Below are positions 1 through 15,787 of a stretch of DNA of 46,146 nucleotides, piece after piece (within the stretch, counting starts at the first letter, position 1; every line of letters begins with the position of its first letter). Source of the stretch: Candidatus Omnitrophota bacterium (GTDB lineage Bacteria; Omnitrophota; Gorgyraeia; Zapsychrales; Zapsychraceae); the NCBI GenBank assembly GCA_018812705.1, contig JAHJCZ010000052.1, positions 1-46,146 on the forward strand. Reading direction: 5' to 3'. The notes below the pieces were generated by a model. The model saw nothing but the letters and a program-made list of their open reading frames with translations. It made no database searches and was not told the DNA's origin. The translations under genes and the position numbers were made by a program.

Positions 1-1174
1 CATCAATATATATTTCACCTTTTTGCGGATCAATAAATCTGATCAACAGATTCATAATAGTGGTTTTGCCAGCTCCACTTGGGCCTACTATTCCTATATT
101 TTCTCCTTCTTTAACAGAAAAATTAATATCTTTAAGAACACGCTTACATTGAGAATAGCAAAAAGACACGTTCCTAAATTCTACTTGTCCTTTTATTGAC
201 ACAGGAACTAAAGGTGATTGCGATTCCTCAACCTCATCCCCACATGCCATGATCTCATTAATACGGCAAAGTGCTGCCGCTGCTTCCTGATAAGAGCTGT
301 TAATAACAACCATCCGAATAAGAGGAGTGAACAGCATTCCTAAATAAGAATAAAATGCAATTAATTCTCCAGGCGTCATCCGTTTATAAATAACATCTAA
401 TCCTCCTATCCATAAAACACCGATAACGCCCACTGTTGTAAAAAAATCTATTGCCGTCCACAAGCTTAGATTTAAGGAATGATTTTTTTTTGCTATATTC
501 ATTATTTCATTCTGTCGTGCAGTAAATTTGTTTTTTTCGTGATCTTCCGCTGTAAAGATTCGAACAATCGCCATACCGCTCAGAACCTCGTTAACTCTTG
601 ATGCAAGTTTCGCATTAACATCACGTAAACTCTTATACCCCGATTTAAGGCGCGGCAATATCCTGAAATACATAATAGAGAATATCGGTAAAGTTAATAA
701 AGCAACCAGCGTTAATCTGGGGTTTATCCATAAAAGAATGATCGTTATGAATCCCAAACTTAAAATTGCATAAATAAAGTCTATAGCATCGCTAAAAATA
801 AAACGGCGAACACTTTCAACATCTCCTGTAATACGGGTAAGTATCTGTGAGGGTGTAATTTTTTTAATACTTATTAAAGGCATCTTTTGAGCATGCCAGT
901 AAATTTTCTCTCTTAAATCGCAGACGATTTTCTCGCCTATCATATTACTTATCATTTTCCGCAAGAAATTAAAACCTAATTGTAAAATAAGAATTCCAAC
1001 TAACGCAAATATAATAATATTCAGCAGCTGGACATTTTTATTTATAAGAACATCATCAATGATTATTTTAATACTCCATGGAAGAGCAAGGGATAAGAGA
1101 TTTGCTATAAGTATAAAAAAAAGAGCAAGCGCAATTCTTTTTCGGTATGGTTTTATAAAGGAATAAAATGTCAT
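1..1174 (-). CDS. ABC exporter, fused membrane and ATPase domains (3' end beyond window)
   Basis: The reading frame opens at an ATG that shares ATGA with the stop of the radical SAM gene, and stays open to the window edge (391 codons). Residues 1-320 look like the six-helix membrane domain of an MsbA/peptide-exporter type ABC protein; the start has the usual pattern of basic residues, a hydrophobic helix, then PWSIKIIIDDVL. The nucleotide-binding domain begins late, with Walker A GPSGAGKT at about residues 364-371; the Q-loop, signature and Walker B lie outside the window. No N-terminal C39 peptidase domain is present, so leader removal would need another protease or a C-terminal part not seen here. 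Translational coupling to the maturase and the nearby precursor peptide suggest it exports the modified peptide. A lipid-flippase role cannot be excluded from sequence alone. Confidence 0.9.
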   Translation of the reverse strand, partial: MTFYSFIKPYRKRIALALFFILIANLLSLALPWSIKIIIDDVLINKNVQLLNIIIFALVGILILQLGFNFLRKMISNMIGEKIVCDLREKIYWHAQKMPLISIKKITPSQILTRITGDVESVRRFIFSDAIDFIYAILSLGFITIILLWINPRLTLVALLTLPIFSIMYFRILPRLKSGYKSLRDVNAKLASRVNEVLSGMAIVRIFTAEDHEKNKFTARQNEIMNIAKKNHSLNLSLWTAIDFFTTVGVIGVLWIGGLDVIYKRMTPGELIAFYSYLGMLFTPLIRMVVINSSYQEAAAALCRINEIMACGDEVEESQSPLVPVSIKGQVEFRNVSFCYSQCKRVLKDINFSVKEGENIGIVGPSGAGKTTIMNLLIRFIDPQKGEIYID

Positions 1175-2523
1175 TTGTCTTTGGGAATCAATGCTTCATA
1201 TTCTCTTTTTATAAAAACAGGCGCCATTTCATCTAAATAGCGCTTTTTGCATGTTGGTTTATGAAAATTTTTGTTTTCTAAAAAAGCCATGAAGCGGCAT
1301 CCCCCGCTGCACATTGGAAGATAAGGACAATCCTGAGGACAGCTCTGCCAGGGTGAAAGATTTAAGAATTTCTGGTGTTGAAAATTATACTCATCGCTGA
1401 AAACATCCCCAACCGAAAACTCCTTATATCCCAACATGGAATTGCATTTATAAATATTTCCCCTCTGGTCAATGGTTACGCCTCCATTTTCCATCGTCAA
1501 CGGACATGCCGTGATCGTCATACCATTCTTTATGGGCAATCCTTTATGTTCCATTAATTGATGAATTTTCCCGGCAGCACTGATAATTACATCATCATCA
1601 TAATTGCACATACACGACATCTGTCGGAATAATTCAGGATGGCTCTTAGAACCAAAAGAAGGATGTATCGGAGAAAAGATGAAATCTCCCAATTTATGCA
1701 AAATTTCCAGGTCATCAAGATAATCAAGAAGGTCTTCAATATGTTTAATATCATCTTTATCATAACTTACAGAGAGGCCAATCTTTACTTTATCAAGACA
1801 TTCGACAATGTTATCCATGATCGTATAAAATGTTCCCCCACCGCCTTTTAAAGGGCGATTCTTATCATGAATATGAGCCAGGCCGTCAACCGAGATCCTC
1901 ACGCTGGATAATCCTAATTTTAAAAGTTTATCTATGTACTCAGGCGTAATTAGATAACCGTTGGTTTGCAGCATAAACCTAAAACGCACTTTTCTTTCAT
2001 CGCACCAATTTTTCATTTCAGAAGCTAAATATTCCAGAGCAGGCTTGTTAACTAATGGTTCTCCTCCGTAAAATGTTATATATAATTCTTCGTAACCTAG
2101 ACGTTCAACTTTATTTTTCATCCAATCCATAGCATGATTACAAGTTGGCTCTTCCATATTTATATTTTCTCTTGCCCCTTTCTCAAAACAATATACGCAG
2201 TCAAAATTACAGGCATCAGTTGTAAGAAGCGTTACATGCATAAAAGACCTATTAACACCATATTTTAATTGGCGGAAGAATGACCTTAATTTTTCCCGAT
2301 CCTGATCCTCATTCTCGACTAGAATACCCATCTTAAAAAGCTGATCCAACTCATTACAATATTTAGTTTTTAATGAAAATTTCTGCGGGTTGTAATAATC
2401 AGCAATTATTTCTTTGAGCCCCTGCTCGATCTTAACCATTGCCTGCGTTCGTGTGTTAAAAAGAAGATATTCCCCTTCTTTTGGATAATTTTCAACAGTA
2501 ATTGTATAATCGGATAGTTTCAT
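1171..2523 (-). CDS. SPASM-type radical SAM peptide maturase
   Basis: This 450-residue enzyme has the radical SAM cluster motif CNFDCVYC (Cys105, Cys109, Cys112) and a GGEP motif at 153-156. The C-terminal SPASM region carries Cys340, Cys360, Cys395, Cys399, Cys405, Cys409 and Cys425, enough to hold auxiliary iron-sulfur clusters. The N-terminal 95 residues resemble the RiPP-recognition-like leader domain of peptide maturases; the opening MKLSDYTITVEN and LLFNTRT recall the geopeptide and SbtM-like maturase groups, a family placement made from memory. It probably modifies the peptide encoded immediately upstream at 2596-2700, for instance by a thioether or other cysteine-centred or C-C crosslink. 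The specific reaction is not readable from sequence. The stop overlaps the ABC exporter start, so the two are translationally coupled. Confidence 0.93.
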   Translation of the reverse strand: MKLSDYTITVENYPKEGEYLLFNTRTQAMVKIEQGLKEIIADYYNPQKFSLKTKYCNELDQLFKMGILVENEDQDREKLRSFFRQLKYGVNRSFMHVTLLTTDACNFDCVYCFEKGARENINMEEPTCNHAMDWMKNKVERLGYEELYITFYGGEPLVNKPALEYLASEMKNWCDERKVRFRFMLQTNGYLITPEYIDKLLKLGLSSVRISVDGLAHIHDKNRPLKGGGGTFYTIMDNIVECLDKVKIGLSVSYDKDDIKHIEDLLDYLDDLEILHKLGDFIFSPIHPSFGSKSHPELFRQMSCMCNYDDDVIISAAGKIHQLMEHKGLPIKNGMTITACPLTMENGGVTIDQRGNIYKCNSMLGYKEFSVGDVFSDEYNFQHQKFLNLSPWQSCPQDCPYLPMCSGGCRFMAFLENKNFHKPTCKKRYLDEMAPVFIKREYEALIPKDK

Positions 2524-2541
2524 AAATATTTTCTTCAGAAA

Positions 2542-2582
2542 TTTATAGGGATGCTTGTATTAAATCCAAGCATCCCTATAAA
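2542..2582 (-). promoter_or_regulatory. Strong hairpin between precursor peptide and maturase genes
   Basis: A perfect inverted repeat pairs 2542-2557 with 2567-2582 (16 bp, with a 14-bp core from TATAGGGATGCTTG) around a 9-nt loop. On the transcribed minus strand it starts about 13 nt after the precursor stop and ends about 19 nt before the maturase ATG. It is not followed by a U-run on that strand, so it is more likely a partial attenuator or an mRNA-stabilising 3' end than a full terminator. Such a hairpin would give more precursor than enzyme, as is usual in RiPP operons. That function is an inference. Confidence 0.75.
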
Positions 2583-2595
2583 AAACAACCTAATT

Positions 2596-2700
2596 CTATT
2601 CTGGTTCAGGCGAAGTATTACTTCTTGTTCCGGGCGGCCAACAGCAGGATAAAACAGCCATCTCCAATACATCTTCTGTTCCCAATTTAATAATTTCCAT
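2596..2700 (-). CDS. Putative RiPP precursor peptide with CCWPP core
   Basis: This 34-codon frame has an ATG at 2700 and TAG at 2596-2598. An excellent ribosome site, AAAGGAGGT, lies 6 nt upstream (2707-2715). The first 18 residues form an acidic amphipathic leader-like segment (MEIIKLGTEDVLEMAVLS). The rest is a short core beginning CCWPPGTRSN and ending in Ser/Thr/Pro/Glu residues. The only two cysteines are adjacent and followed by Trp-Pro-Pro. It sits directly upstream of a SPASM radical SAM maturase and an ABC exporter, the classic layout of a radical-SAM RiPP. I do not recognise a named precursor family with this core. The leader/core boundary is a guess from the residue change near position 18. 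Confidence 0.85.
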   Translation of the reverse strand: MEIIKLGTEDVLEMAVLSCCWPPGTRSNTSPEPE

Positions 2701-2761
2701 TTACCTACCTCCTTTCGATAAATAATTTTTTAATGCAGAGGTTATGTTAGAAATTGAAAAA

Positions 2762-4369
2762 TCAATCGCTTGAAATATACCAATTCTTTATTGTATATAC
2801 CTGCATATACATACTGAAATAATCATCTATATTTTTAAATTTAGACGAAACCGCATGATAACTAACCGGAAAGAATAAAAAGCAAGCAGGTTGATCTTCA
2901 TATACTATTTTATGAATCTCTCTATAAATTTCTGCTTTTTTATTTTTATTAACAGAAACCCTCCCTAATTCAAAAAGTCTATCAACATCTTCATTTATAT
3001 AATCCCATATTCTCCCAAACTCGCTTGACAACGAATACCAGCTACCAATTGCACCATAAATATTCTCTTCATATCCCCCATAAAATCTCAACCATGCCTG
3101 CGGCCTTTTTTCATCTAAAAATTCCTTTGTTAACTCTTCTTCATCTTTGTACAACTGTACTACAATTTTTATACCAACCTCTGCTAACTGCTGCCTGATA
3201 ATTACCGCCATTTTTTTATAAAGATCGCTTCTTTCATCCACAAGCATCCTTATTTCAAGCTCCCTGCCGTCTTTTTCCAGAATCCCGTCATTATCCGCAT
3301 CTATCCACCCTCTATGCATAAGGTCTATTTTGGCTTTCATAGGATCATATTGTAAAGGCTTAACCTCTTTATTAAATCCTTCTGATTCCGGATGAAAAGG
3401 CCCTAAACTTTCAATACCACCCGGAAATGTAGCTTTTATTATTTCTTTTCTGTTTATACTTTGAGCTATGGCCTTCCTTACTTCTTTATCACCCAAAATA
3501 GGATCTTCCAAGTTATAAGCTATTGCACAATATTTATCCCATGGAATTTTATATCCCCTTAGATCAGGATCTTTTTCTACAACCTTATAGTCCTCATGAT
3601 TTATATACATAATAAAATCAACTTCTTCGCGCATAAATGCCGGCCAAAGTCCATAAACTTCCGGATATATTTTGACAATGATCTTATCCAGATAAGGCCT
3701 GCCTTCGAAATAATCTTCATTGGCAGCAAGTTCGATTTGATCAGTATCTCTATCCCAACTGCTGAATTTAAAAGGCCCTGTCCCTATAGGACTATAATTA
3801 AAAGAGGTATTTCTTAGATCTTGTCCTTCTAAGATATGTTTGGGAATAATCTCTCTATATGCTAGTTTTGTTAAAAAGACAGGAAAAGGACCAGATAAAA
3901 CGAATTTAACTGTATATTTATCAATTATTTCTATTTTCTCTATCAATTCAAAATGTGACCTATAAGGAGACTCATTTTTAGGATCAATTATCTGTTCATA
4001 TGTGAATTTAACATCATCAGCTGTAAATTCAACACCATCATGGAACCTAATTCCTTTTTTTAAACTAAAAACATAGGTAAGGCCATCTTCTGATATTTTC
4101 CAATTCTCAGCTAAGCCTGGTTCAATTTTGCCCTTTGGGCTCATCCTAATCAAATGATCAAAAATAAGATTCATTAAATCCAAAGACACAGTATGCGTTG
4201 TAAAGATTGGATTAATGATTGTCGGGACTTCTCTTGCCCCCATAACAAGCGTTCCGCCGTAAGGATAGTTACGGGATTCCTTTTTAGCTTCTATTACTGA
4301 AGGAAATGCAATTACCAAACTCATTATCAATATGAAAAGTATTGCTCTTTTTCTAACTTTTACTGACAT
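2762..4369 (-). CDS. Family 5 extracellular solute (oligopeptide)-binding lipoprotein-like protein
   Basis: This is a 535-residue DppA/OppA/NikA-type binding protein. Residues 1-28 are a signal peptide (basic start, hydrophobic ILFILIMSLVIAF, then EAKK). The family signature is clear: YGGTLVMG, LAENWKISEDGLTYVFSLKKGIRFHDG, and later NRKEIIKATFPGG. No lipobox cysteine is present, so the mature protein should be soluble in the periplasm. There is no permease gene beside it in the window, which is unusual for this family. It lies 61 nt upstream of the precursor peptide and downstream of a TonB receptor. That places it as a candidate binder of the mature or processed peptide, or of a peptide-metal complex; this role is an inference from context. 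Confidence 0.92.
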   Translation of the reverse strand: MSVKVRKRAILFILIMSLVIAFPSVIEAKKESRNYPYGGTLVMGAREVPTIINPIFTTHTVSLDLMNLIFDHLIRMSPKGKIEPGLAENWKISEDGLTYVFSLKKGIRFHDGVEFTADDVKFTYEQIIDPKNESPYRSHFELIEKIEIIDKYTVKFVLSGPFPVFLTKLAYREIIPKHILEGQDLRNTSFNYSPIGTGPFKFSSWDRDTDQIELAANEDYFEGRPYLDKIIVKIYPEVYGLWPAFMREEVDFIMYINHEDYKVVEKDPDLRGYKIPWDKYCAIAYNLEDPILGDKEVRKAIAQSINRKEIIKATFPGGIESLGPFHPESEGFNKEVKPLQYDPMKAKIDLMHRGWIDADNDGILEKDGRELEIRMLVDERSDLYKKMAVIIRQQLAEVGIKIVVQLYKDEEELTKEFLDEKRPQAWLRFYGGYEENIYGAIGSWYSLSSEFGRIWDYINEDVDRLFELGRVSVNKNKKAEIYREIHKIVYEDQPACFLFFPVSYHAVSSKFKNIDDYFSMYMQVYTIKNWYISSD

Positions 4370-4496
4370 TATTCTACGTCCAAGTTTAAAAACATGTTTA
4401 TTATATTACATTAGATATATATTTTAAGAATAGGATAACAACCCTTTTAACTGACTTTTTTCGACTTTTCAGAAAAAAGCTTTAAAAACTTAGTAA

Positions 4497-6401
4497 TTAA
4501 AATTTCAGGGTAAATCCTCCTTCAAAATATCTTTTTGGCAATGGATAGGTAGGATCTGACCAATATTTACTATTGGTAAGATTATAGACATTAAAGAAAA
4601 ACTCAAGGTCGATATTCTCTTTCACATCTTTAAATTCCTGCTTGAACTTAGCATCAAATATAAATTTACAATCATTAGCCTGATCAGGATCGGAACTCCA
4701 TCGGTTATAATATCCATAAAGATCAACGCCGAAACCTTTATCATTTTCATATTTTCCGCCCAAGTTAAAACTCTGTCTTGCTATGCCGGAATCACGAACG
4801 GTCTGTTTCGTTTCTCTATTTTCAACATCATTAAATGCCCCGCTCCCATAAAAGCTTAAATCATCATTTACCTTATAATTTAAAGAAAGCTCTGCCCCCT
4901 GGCGCCTTAATTTCCTGAAATTATCCATCATAAATTCCGAATTATTATAGGCAATAGCGTCTTTTACATCGGAGCGATATAGATCCAATTTCATTTTCGT
5001 TGAGGAAAATAACTTTGTCTCAAAGCCAATTTCATAAACGATCGCCCGTTCGGCTTTTAGATCCAGATTAGGGTTAACATATGGAGGCAAATTATTGTAT
5101 ATCCACATTAGCGGCGGAGCATTAAAAGCACGCGAAATTTTGGCCCGGACTAACGATCTATTAGGATCCTTAAAATGATAAATTATTCCAAAGCTCGGAC
5201 TTGTCTGTGAACCAAATTGCTGATTATTATCAAACCTTACTCCAGGAATAAAATCCCAATTATTTAGTTTCAATGTGTAATTTGCGTACGGAGACTGCAT
5301 GCTGATACTTTTTCCTGTATCTAGATAATTTGATGATTTAAATCTATGCCAATCAAAATCCGAACCAAAAACAAAAAGGTCTTCTTCTCTTAATTTTAAA
5401 CTTCCATTTAAACTAATTCCCTGATAAACATTGTTATTTACAGTTGAGCTGTTTTGAACACCCGTTAAAGCATCGTAATTATCGCTGATAACATCCTGAT
5501 CATTGTATTTATATGCAATACTGAAATTTAAATCATCTTTATTAAAATCCAGTTTAACTTTTCCGTAACGTGCAATGTATGGCATTGAATCCCATGTACC
5601 ATCAGAATTTACCCCATCATGAACATTAGCTCCGGTATATCCGAACGAGCTTATTATCTTTAAAGCATCATTTATAGAAGCCGAAACCTTGCCGAAAATC
5701 TTTTTCTCCTGAGCATCTGATCGGGACTTGATTCCATCTGTCTCCAAATAACTCCCTGAGACAAAATATCCCACATCAGAAATTTTTCCTGCTAACTCAA
5801 GACTATTCTTTGTTGTACTGAATCCAGCAAATGTGGTTTTAAATTTACCTTTAGGAACTACAGAATCCCCTACATCTTTGGTAATAACATTGATTACGCC
5901 ACCTAAGCTGGAACCCCAGACACTTGATGAGGCCCCTTTAAGAATCTCTATACGTTCAATATTTTCAACCGGTATTATCGCAGGATCTGCCTGGCCTGAA
6001 AGCTGAGTATTAAAAGGGATCCCATCGATCATTAATAAAACCTGGCGGGAATTTGACCCGTGAATAGATAAAGACGTTGCTTGACCAAACTGATTTGTAA
6101 CAGATACATCAACACCCGGTATATATTTCAATACCTCTCCTAAATTGTTTGCGGATGTTCTCTCAATCTCTTTTTTTGTATATACTGTTACATTTTCAGC
6201 AGTATCTTCTCCTTCTGAGCCAACACGCTTAGCTGATATCAAAACAGTACCCAGCATTACGGGATTGGAGAATAACACTTCCGAAGATTCGTCAGCTGAA
6301 ATACTTGTGATAGAAAGAAGAATAAAAACAAGAAAAGCTATAAAGATACTTATAGTGTACTTGAACCCAATTAAGCTGTTATTTTGGCATGAAATTTTCA
6401 C
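4497..6401 (-). CDS. TonB-dependent outer membrane receptor (BtuB/siderophore type)
   Basis: The 634-residue protein has a long hydrophobic signal sequence (about residues 12-36) and a short Ser/Glu-rich stretch before the plug. The plug domain (about 60-180) has typical motifs: NLGEVLKYIPGVDV, LMIDGIPFN, and IERIEILKGASSSVWGSSLGGVINVITK. A 22-strand barrel with alternating aromatic pattern follows and ends in a C-terminal Phe (GGFTLKF), the BAM recognition signal. Such receptors import cobalamin, iron chelates or other metal complexes using TonB. The start is a GTG with only a weak ribosome site; there is no upstream in-frame ATG. It stands 127 nt before the peptide-binding protein gene on the same strand, suggesting one transcript with the RiPP genes. 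The ligand is unknown. Confidence 0.92.
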   Translation of the reverse strand: MKISCQNNSLIGFKYTISIFIAFLVFILLSITSISADESSEVLFSNPVMLGTVLISAKRVGSEGEDTAENVTVYTKKEIERTSANNLGEVLKYIPGVDVSVTNQFGQATSLSIHGSNSRQVLLMIDGIPFNTQLSGQADPAIIPVENIERIEILKGASSSVWGSSLGGVINVITKDVGDSVVPKGKFKTTFAGFSTTKNSLELAGKISDVGYFVSGSYLETDGIKSRSDAQEKKIFGKVSASINDALKIISSFGYTGANVHDGVNSDGTWDSMPYIARYGKVKLDFNKDDLNFSIAYKYNDQDVISDNYDALTGVQNSSTVNNNVYQGISLNGSLKLREEDLFVFGSDFDWHRFKSSNYLDTGKSISMQSPYANYTLKLNNWDFIPGVRFDNNQQFGSQTSPSFGIIYHFKDPNRSLVRAKISRAFNAPPLMWIYNNLPPYVNPNLDLKAERAIVYEIGFETKLFSSTKMKLDLYRSDVKDAIAYNNSEFMMDNFRKLRRQGAELSLNYKVNDDLSFYGSGAFNDVENRETKQTVRDSGIARQSFNLGGKYENDKGFGVDLYGYYNRWSSDPDQANDCKFIFDAKFKQEFKDVKENIDLEFFFNVYNLTNSKYWSDPTYPLPKRYFEGGFTLKF

Positions 6402-13183: not shown

Positions 13184-15787
13184 TCATTTATCCTGCGCCT
13201 TGCTACGCCTGGCATTAAATACAAATTCTTTTTTATCAATATCAACACTAATACAATCTTTTTCCCTAAACTCTCCCTCAAGGATCTTAAGTGCGATCGG
13301 GTCTTGTATATATTTCTGTACTATTCTCTTTAATGGCCGCGCTCCATAAGCAAGGTCATATCCAAGCTCACCTAGCAGATCCTTTGCTTGATCTGTTAAA
13401 TCTATATCAAAATTCTTTTCGTTTAATCGATTTTTAAGTATGCCCAATTGAATATCAACGATCTGACGGATATGCTCCTTATCTAATTGATTAAAGACTA
13501 TGATCTCATCAACACGGTTAAGGAACTCAGGACGGAAGTGCCGCTTCATAACTTCCCTGATCTTTATATCAATGTCTTTTTTTTCTTCCATTTCCATGAT
13601 CAGATCTGTCCCGATATTCGAAGTCATTATAATAATGGTGTTTTTAAAATTAACGATCCTACCTTGTCCATCCGTTAACCGCCCATCATCAAGGATCTGA
13701 AGCAAGGCATTAAAAACATCCTTGTGAGCTTTTTCAATTTCATCAAATAAAATAACAGAATACGGCCTGCGGCGAACAGCTTCAGTAAGCTGTCCTCCCT
13801 CTTCATAGCCGACATATCCGGGAGGTGCACCTATTAACTTTGAGACGCTGTGCTGTTCCATGTACTCACTCATGTCGATGCGTATCATGGCAGTTTCATC
13901 ATCAAATAAAAACCAAGCCAAGGATTTCGCCAGCTCCGTCTTCCCAACGCCTGTCGGACCGACAAAAATAAAAGATCCGACCGGACGATGCGGATCACTT
14001 AATCCAATGCGTGAGCGTCTAATAGCATTTGCAATTAAGTCGATCGCCTGGTCCTGTCCGACTATTCGGGTCTTTAGACTTTTTTCAATGTTTATCAGTT
14101 TCTCTGTTTCCCCCTCTATTAATTTTGAAATAGGTATCCGTGTCCATTTAGAGACAACTTCTGCTATATCCTGATCATCAACTTCTTCTTTGAGCATTGA
14201 GCCATGTTTTTGCAGGTTAACAAGTTCCTTGTTTTGGACCTCTAGGTCCTTCTGCAAATTAACCAGGATCCCATATTTTATTTCAGCTGCCTTATTCAGA
14301 TCAGCATTTCTTTCAGCCTTGCTTTCCTCCAGTTTCTGATGCTCTATCTCCGACTTTATTTTTCGTATCTTATCAATTAAACTTTTCTCTCCCTGCCATT
14401 GCAAACGAAGCTTCTTGTTCTCTTCTTTAAGGTTCTCTAATTCTTTTTCTAATTTTTGCAGACGTTCTTTTGATGCTTCATCTTTTTCTTTTTTTAAAGC
14501 CTGTTTTTCAATTTCTAATTGACGAATGCGTCGCTCATTGATATCCAATTCCTGCGGCATGCTGTCAATTTCAATTCTCAGCTTTGAAGCTGCTTCATCT
14601 ATAAGATCAATAGCTTTATCCGGCAGAAATCTTTCTGTAATATATCTATCAGATAGTGTCGAAGCGGCAATAATAGCTGAATCCTGTATTCGCACACCGT
14701 GGTGAACCTCATATTTTTCCTTTAATCCTCTTAATATTGCAATGGTATCTTCAACCGATGGCTGATTGACCATAACCTGCTGAAATCGTCTCTCTAGCGC
14801 AGCATCTTTTTAAACATATTTTCTATACTCATCCAAAGTCGTTGCGCCAATACAACGTAATGTCCCTCTAGATAAAGCCGGTTTTAGCATGTTCCCTGCA
14901 TCCATGGACCCTTCCGTCTTTCCTGCTCCGACAATTGTATGCAGTTCATCAATAAAAAGTATCACTTGCCCTTGTGCAGATTCTATTTCCTTTAACACAG
15001 CTTTCAACCGGTCTTCAAATTCTCCCCTGAATTTTGTGCCGGCGATCAATGCTCCCATATCCAAGGCAACAACTTTTTTGTTTTTCAATCCTTCCGGAAT
15101 ATCCCCTTCATAAATTCTTTGTGCCAACCCTTCAACAATAGCCGTCTTTCCAACTCCGGGCTCACCGATCAAAACAGGGTTATTTTTTGTTCTGCGTGAC
15201 AAAACTTGAACAACACGCCTTATTTCTTCATCTCGTCCAATAACAGGGTCTATCTTGCCTTGTTGCGCAAGGGCTGTTAAATCGCGTCCATATTTTTCCA
15301 ATGCCTGATATTTATCTTCTGGATTCATATCTGTTACCTTTTGCCCTCCCCTTATTTGTTTAAGAATGTTAAGGATATCCTCCTCTTTAACTCCATGACT
15401 TTTTAATTTTTTGCTTATGACCGTATTTTCATCTTGAGATAAAGCTAAAAATATATGCTCTAAAGCAACGAATTCATCTTTCATCCCAGATGCGATCCTT
15501 TGCGCTTCATTTAATATATTATTTAAAGTGTTGGATAAAAATGGCTGAGTGCCGCCCTGTACCACAGGCTTTTTATCAAGAACGGATTCCAGATCATTTA
15601 AAATCTCCGCGACTGGTATATTAAGCTTTTCCAGAAAAGAAATGATGAGGCTGCCTTCAATTTTTAGAAGAGAATATGTTAAATGTTCCGACTCAATTTG
15701 CTGATGCCCAAGCTGCATCGCAAGCTCTACTGCTTTTTGAATGGATTCCTGGCTCTTATGCGTAAATTTTTCAAAATTAACTGCCAT
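13184..15787 (-). pseudogene. clpB: ClpB disaggregase gene interrupted by an in-frame TAA
   Basis: Reading through one TAA at 14810-14812 (codon 326) gives an 867-residue ClpB of normal length. Part one (15787-14810) has the Clp N domain and the first AAA module with Walker A GEPGVGKT and [10 protein letters not shown], ending [12 protein letters not shown]. Part two continues in the same frame with [11 protein letters not shown], the middle coiled coil, the second AAA module ([31 protein letters not shown]) and the C-terminal Clp domain. Family members usually have Glu at the stop position, so GAA to TAA is the simplest change. No frameshift or other damage is seen. It may be a sequencing error, a recent nonsense mutation or a readthrough site. 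ClpB rescues aggregated proteins with DnaK. Confidence 0.93.

Follow-up and report, generated by a model that had tools for sequence, protein, structure and literature searches.

A conserved Omnitrophota locus that may make, retrieve and sense a short modified peptide

Why should the genes for making a RiPP, a short and presumably modified peptide, run together with those for an outer-membrane receptor and a periplasmic binding protein? The question is raised by a locus from Omnitrophota, a phylum that is almost entirely uncultured. The locus lies at one end of a 46,146-nucleotide stretch of DNA, referred to below as the window, which is the entire contig C175 of a 195-contig MAG (genome G000). 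A preliminary description of the window proposed a peptide metallophore that is secreted and later retrieved. A conserved sensor kinase and response regulator, which lie outside the window and were hence invisible from it alone, point towards sensing.

The locus and its continuation beyond the window

Five genes lie on the minus strand, all in one direction, exactly as the preliminary description had them. The first gene of the operon encodes a TonB-dependent receptor (TBDR) resembling BtuB and CirA (4497..6401; Pfam PF07715 and PF00593; Plug 3.9e-26, barrel 2.6e-32). Its PDB profile matches are likewise CirA and BtuB, the best NCBIfam match is TIGR01779 TonB-B12 at 175 bits, below the cut-off, and TonB-C domain proteins are encoded in all six genomes tested. 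The next gene encodes a family 5 periplasmic solute-binding protein (SBP; 2762..4369; PF00496, 9.8e-80) with an apparent Sec signal peptide, as read by eye. Its nearest solved relative is the oligopeptide binder AppA (1xoc, 229 bits), nickel binders scoring about 97-116, a relationship which appears to favour a peptide ligand without proving it.

The RiPP precursor (2596..2700), delineated by its open reading frame, ribosome-binding site and a family alignment, is a 34-residue peptide, MEIIKLGTEDVLEMAVLSCCWPPGTRSNTSPEPE, which contains SCCWPPGT, occurs as a single copy in the genome and has a strong Shine-Dalgarno site, GAAAGGAGGTAGGTAA. It would consist of the leader MEIIKLGTEDVLEMAVLS and the core CCWPPGTRSNTSPEPE, divided at a putative border. 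Between the precursor and the maturase lies a hairpin with a 16-bp stem (2542..2582; z = -6.0 against dinucleotide shuffles). The maturase (1171..2523), a radical SAM/SPASM protein (PF04055, 6.4e-20) and a relative of the geopeptide maturases, is followed by an MsbA-type ABC exporter (2..1174, running below position 2; ABC_membrane 2.7e-45), which is truncated by the contig end and in whose truncated reading frame no C39 peptidase domain is seen. The locus has no recognisable outer-membrane duct or leader peptidase, so that release of the peptide through the outer membrane is conjectural. A scan of promoters and terminators gave no more matches than in shuffled sequence.

The marks of the SPASM maturases are all present, namely a CxxxCxxC motif with the invariant C105, C109 and C112, a C-terminal set of cysteines and an RRE-like N-terminus, the last of which we infer to be of the RRE type from predicted strands and helices read by eye. 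The model of the protein (pLDDT 85) has its best fold match in CteB (5why/5wgg), the nearest solved fold; CteB and PapB, maturases of ranthipeptides and sactipeptides, are likewise SPASM radical SAM proteins with an RRE-like N-terminus. Unlike in those systems, however, the Omnitrophota precursor is not Cys-rich, and the linkage here is a prediction.

The operon appears to continue on a second contig of the same assembly, C121, which was found with a kinase query. Its first 345 bases match positions 1-345 of the window at 94% identity, and C121 is therefore an apparent close strain variant, which suggests that two strains are mixed in this part of the MAG. The second contig carries the remaining C-terminal half of the exporter (L133:3-914), a dCache/HAMP histidine kinase (L133:927-2744) and an AraC-type response regulator (L133:2758-3465). 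The join is deduced from the overlap, and an identical gene order runs unbroken in other genomes.

Conservation and co-variation across Omnitrophota

The search covered 92 relatives and 384 genomes of the phylum, and loci were fetched from 24 genomes including that of the window. Counted over loci whose contig reaches far enough, the Cys-Cys precursor and the SBP are present in 24 of 24 (the SBP partial in three), the TBDR in 21 of 21, and the dCache histidine kinase in 22 of 22 (three of them partial, and that of the window's genome lying on C121), usually with a response regulator. The receptor shows some oddities, lying on the opposite strand beside the kinase in G119, being split over two frames in G076 and represented by its end only in G256. 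The exporter adjoining the maturase is the least conserved part, found at 16 of 22 loci and absent from G006, G012, G016, G018, G076 and G171. The expectation that all five genes stay together in relatives thus holds for the precursor, SBP and TBDR and, at six loci, fails for the exporter. A maturase, precursor and exporter without receptor or SBP had been named as the case that would separate the uptake half from the rest; the opposite was found, with the exporter being the part lost and the uptake genes always present, so that the two halves do form one unit.

Another 23 Omnitrophota genomes keep the gene order and the precursor, far more than chance would give. The distribution of the locus is patchy (19 of 384 genomes at a strict threshold), and it is whole wherever present; its absence from the same-genus genome G001 is apparent only, as the contig there has the receptor, SBP and precursor and then ends. 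Distances among the maturase, SBP, TBDR and kinase correlate with a Mantel r of 0.78-0.90, compared with 0.34-0.57 against the housekeeping protein LepA, which indicates that the four proteins travelled together beyond the host phylogeny. Within the CCWPPG clade alone the correlations are lower (0.40-0.77), and the signal of co-variation therefore arises mainly between clades. Together with the order kept in 24 genomes, the Mantel test rules out the uptake genes as chance neighbours.

At every locus the maturase gene is immediately preceded by the precursor gene, which adjoins the SBP gene except in rearranged cases. The core pattern CC[WFY]PxG is strongly conserved across families, with Cys-Cys and Pro being the sole invariant core residues in the family alignment. 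The regulator is of the AraC type and follows the kinase in the CCWPPG clade, and the CC[FY]P.G clade has an NtrC-like regulator upstream of the TBDR.

Most of 21 loci have a hairpin in the gap that separates the precursor from the maturase. The stem sequences are unrelated; z runs from about -3 to -8.5 for the larger part of the loci, and four score little better than shuffles. In the CC[FY]P.G clade the stem varies and the loop GCGGCCGA is nearly invariant (L135:8223-8234, L136:10051-10062, L138:8503-8514, L139:1290-1301, L140:332-343 and L141:8598-8609); each locus has a single copy of it, and the fetched loci contain no others. The two loci scanned against Rfam matched no family in this interval at the gathering threshold. 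The hairpin likely serves to keep the output of the precursor higher than that of the maturase.

Relation to the geopeptide loci

The preliminary description took the combination of a radical SAM maturase and a Cys-Cys core to be new, which is partly right, as the NCBI geopeptide family (TIGR04229/TIGR04280) already has Cys-Cys cores and loci with a TBDR. TIGR04280 is the best NCBIfam match of the window maturase. Against its cut-off of 400 bits, the Omnitrophota maturases tested score 253-290 (253 for the window, 290 for L136), and a control from Geomesophilobacter (L062) reaches 588. For TIGR04229, with a cut-off of 30 bits, the window precursor gives no match, one relative scores 18.6 and a Geobacteraceae control 35.2. 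By these curated cut-offs the Omnitrophota proteins fall outside the geopeptide family, to which the maturase is related as judged from its sequence.

A maturase tree of 75 rows groups the geopeptide enzymes from Geobacteraceae and Nitrospirota, with 100/100 support, in a clade that excludes Omnitrophota. The neighbouring group, in which the SBP is of family 5, consists of Omnitrophota, Auribacterota, Brocadiaceae, Spirochaetales and one Ignavibacteriales row, and its join with the geopeptide clade is weakly supported (80/55). A contig scan with the single maturase sequence gave no match, and its repeat with an alignment returned 80 loci in named genomes. Nearly all of those in the geopeptide clade have a TBDR and an SBP of the PF04392 type, which is non-homologous to the family 5 SBP, and most have a kinase; genes for an SBP, TBDR or kinase are rare around related maturases outside these groups, which serve as an internal control. 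The two systems are thus alike in a short Cys-Cys precursor, a homologous maturase and an adjacent TBDR, SBP and, mostly, histidine kinase. They differ in the SBP family, in the CC[WFY]PxG core and usual ABC exporter of the Omnitrophota loci, and in the regulator, which is of the AraC type in the CCWPPG clade and of the NtrC type in geopeptide loci. Neither 'geopeptide', looked for in 5.39 million open-access papers, nor 'TIGR04280' gave a text match in the literature; geopeptides have curated family names, and no function for them was found in these papers.

Several related loci were also noted. Nine Acidobacteriota loci (L042, L044-L046, L048, L052, L053, L069 and L076) combine a regulator, a related maturase, a family 5 SBP and a dCache kinase; the TBDR is absent from them, and a search for a Cys-Cys precursor recognised none. 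Two geopeptide units stand in tandem in Geomesophilobacter sediminis (L062:9956-17539); their cores differ, and neither unit shares its TBDR or PF04392-type SBP with the other. The Nitrospirota precursors (L049:9660-9800, L064:9750-9950 and L065:3950-4070) have long, Lys/Ala-rich leaders resembling histone tails before the Cys-Cys core.

A possible peptide-sensing circuit and its alternatives

The periplasmic domain of the kinase is predicted with a pLDDT of 88 as a double Cache fold resembling PctA, PctC and Mlp24. Domains of the dCache type often bind small ligands directly. Across loci the sensor domain has a mean identity of 0.43, as high as the 0.44 of the ATPase domain. A single conserved ligand is thereby suggested, as such equal conservation would be unusual if the ligand of the sensor changed. 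RxW[YF], the motif of amino-acid-type dCache domains, is missing from all 19 kinase sensors, which counts against an amino-acid sensor.

For the binding protein, the preliminary description called for a search for a permease partner, and none is present at any locus tested. An OppC-type permease is encoded in 11 of 12 carrier genomes checked, never at this locus. In most carriers there are two family 5 SBPs, of which one is encoded in the locus and the other shares a contig with the Opp permease; G013, G021 and G024, the maturase-free genomes that were checked, have a single one. As the Opp permease elsewhere has its own SBP, these counts rule out the SBP of the locus as a component of an oligopeptide importer.

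The conserved block of precursor, maturase, receptor, SBP and sensor therefore suggests that these bacteria make, re-import and sense a short modified peptide, a reading to which we would give about even weight. Export is deduced from the ABC exporter, retrieval from the TBDR, and sensing from an SBP that lacks a permease and a kinase that is always there; the direction of transport, the modification and the ligand are thus all predictions. The maturase would bind the leader of about 18 residues via its RRE-like N-terminal domain and form thioether-type links from both Cys residues, and the core would then be cleaved, its export falling to the ABC exporter or to one encoded elsewhere. After returning to the periplasm via the TBDR, the peptide would be bound by the SBP and presented to the dCache domain of the kinase, as LuxP does for LuxQ, upon which the response regulator would switch genes, probably including its own operon. 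The peptide could act as a signal of the cell's own making, or as a probe that on coming back carries information about the surroundings, such as density, diffusion or something bound.

A published precedent for an SBP working with a two-component sensor is the LuxP-LuxQ system for autoinducer-2 in Vibrio, in which a periplasmic SBP and a membrane histidine kinase likewise serve a self-made extracellular molecule; however, LuxP is of the ribose type, its ligand is a small furanosyl borate diester, and neither a TBDR nor a RiPP is involved, which makes the analogy a functional one only (PMC524169). The contact between SBP and kinase is predicted here from adjacency, conservation and co-variation. 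The kinase in 22 of 22 loci that reach it counts for sensing, as do the Acidobacteriota loci with SBP and kinase and without a TBDR beside related maturases; the PF04392-type sets in the geopeptide loci of Geobacteraceae and Nitrospirota are an independent repeat of the pattern. Against sensing stand the six loci without an exporter, the failure to find a conserved operator motif, and the possibility that the kinase responds to nutrient or metal status and not to the peptide.

As the same design is found with two unrelated SBPs, a more general model would make signals of all geopeptides; in it a RiPP pheromone circuit of diderms, with return via its own TBDR and readout by an SBP and kinase, would occur at least twice. 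We regard this extension as possible, at somewhat less than even chances. The occurrence of TBDR, SBP and kinase beside such peptides in several phyla defines a testable class of peptides that would be made, released and read back.

Metal acquisition, the function first proposed for the locus, is considerably less probable than sensing, and the two are not exclusive. A secreted, modified Cys-Cys peptide would here chelate a metal such as Cu(I) or Zn and return via the TBDR to the SBP, with the kinase reporting metal status and controlling the operon. As an analogy the comparison with methanobactin stands, since its retrieval set also consists of a TBDR and an OppA/AppA-like SBP (MbnT/MbnE) with an unknown inner-membrane step (PMC7558416), and its operon shares an equally short Cys-containing precursor, an exporter and the lack of a known inner-membrane importer (PMC7558416, PMC3621798); the genes of this pair are present in every Omnitrophota locus reaching them, retrieval itself being predicted. 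The invariant Cys pair and an SBP family that takes in metallophore binders are also consistent with a metal ligand. The metal function, however, is not borne out. Upstream of the receptor no Fur, Zur, CueR or sigma-54 sites were found above shuffles (19 upstream regions for the metal boxes), with E. coli/B. subtilis-style consensus sequences that could miss a divergent operator. No metal-handling gene kept at the loci was recognised, and neither was a permease; no His, Met or acidic ligand accompanies the invariant Cys-Cys and Pro, and thioether formation would consume the thiols. The TBDR is closer to BtuB/CirA than to most siderophore receptors, and MbnE (5ICQ) is absent among the 60 PDB matches listed for the SBP. 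Finally, the operon is without MbnB (DUF692) or MbnC, the radical SAM/SPASM protein adjoining the precursor instead, and has a two-component system where methanobactin has MbnI/MbnR; the copper link of methanobactin is not carried over here. Either outcome, signal or metal carrier, would provide a candidate system of peptide communication or metal acquisition for Omnitrophota.

It is improbable that a nutrient from outside is what the TBDR, SBP and kinase respond to and that the peptide, unrelated or cytoplasmic (e.g. a redox cofactor), is in the operon by chance. Secretion is indeed uncertain in view of the six loci without an exporter, and the dCache fold matches amino-acid chemoreceptor domains, but the invariable place of the precursor before the maturase and, save in rearranged cases, beside the SBP gene, the co-variation of the four proteins, the lack of RxW[YF] in the sensors and the recurrence of the pattern with another SBP family in geopeptide loci all argue against it. 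Least probable is an antibacterial RiPP whose TBDR, SBP and kinase sense or clear the producer's own weapon: bacteriocin loci commonly combine an ABC exporter with a radical SAM maturase and are often guarded by a two-component system, but no conserved immunity gene was recognised, the core is strongly conserved where bacteriocins diversify, and a retrieval receptor would be unusual for the producer's own toxin.

Elsewhere in the window, a Clp-type ATPase is encoded by two adjacent frames (13184-14773 and 14810-15787) that split one AAA domain, which would reflect a frameshift, a mistake in the assembly or a genuinely split gene.
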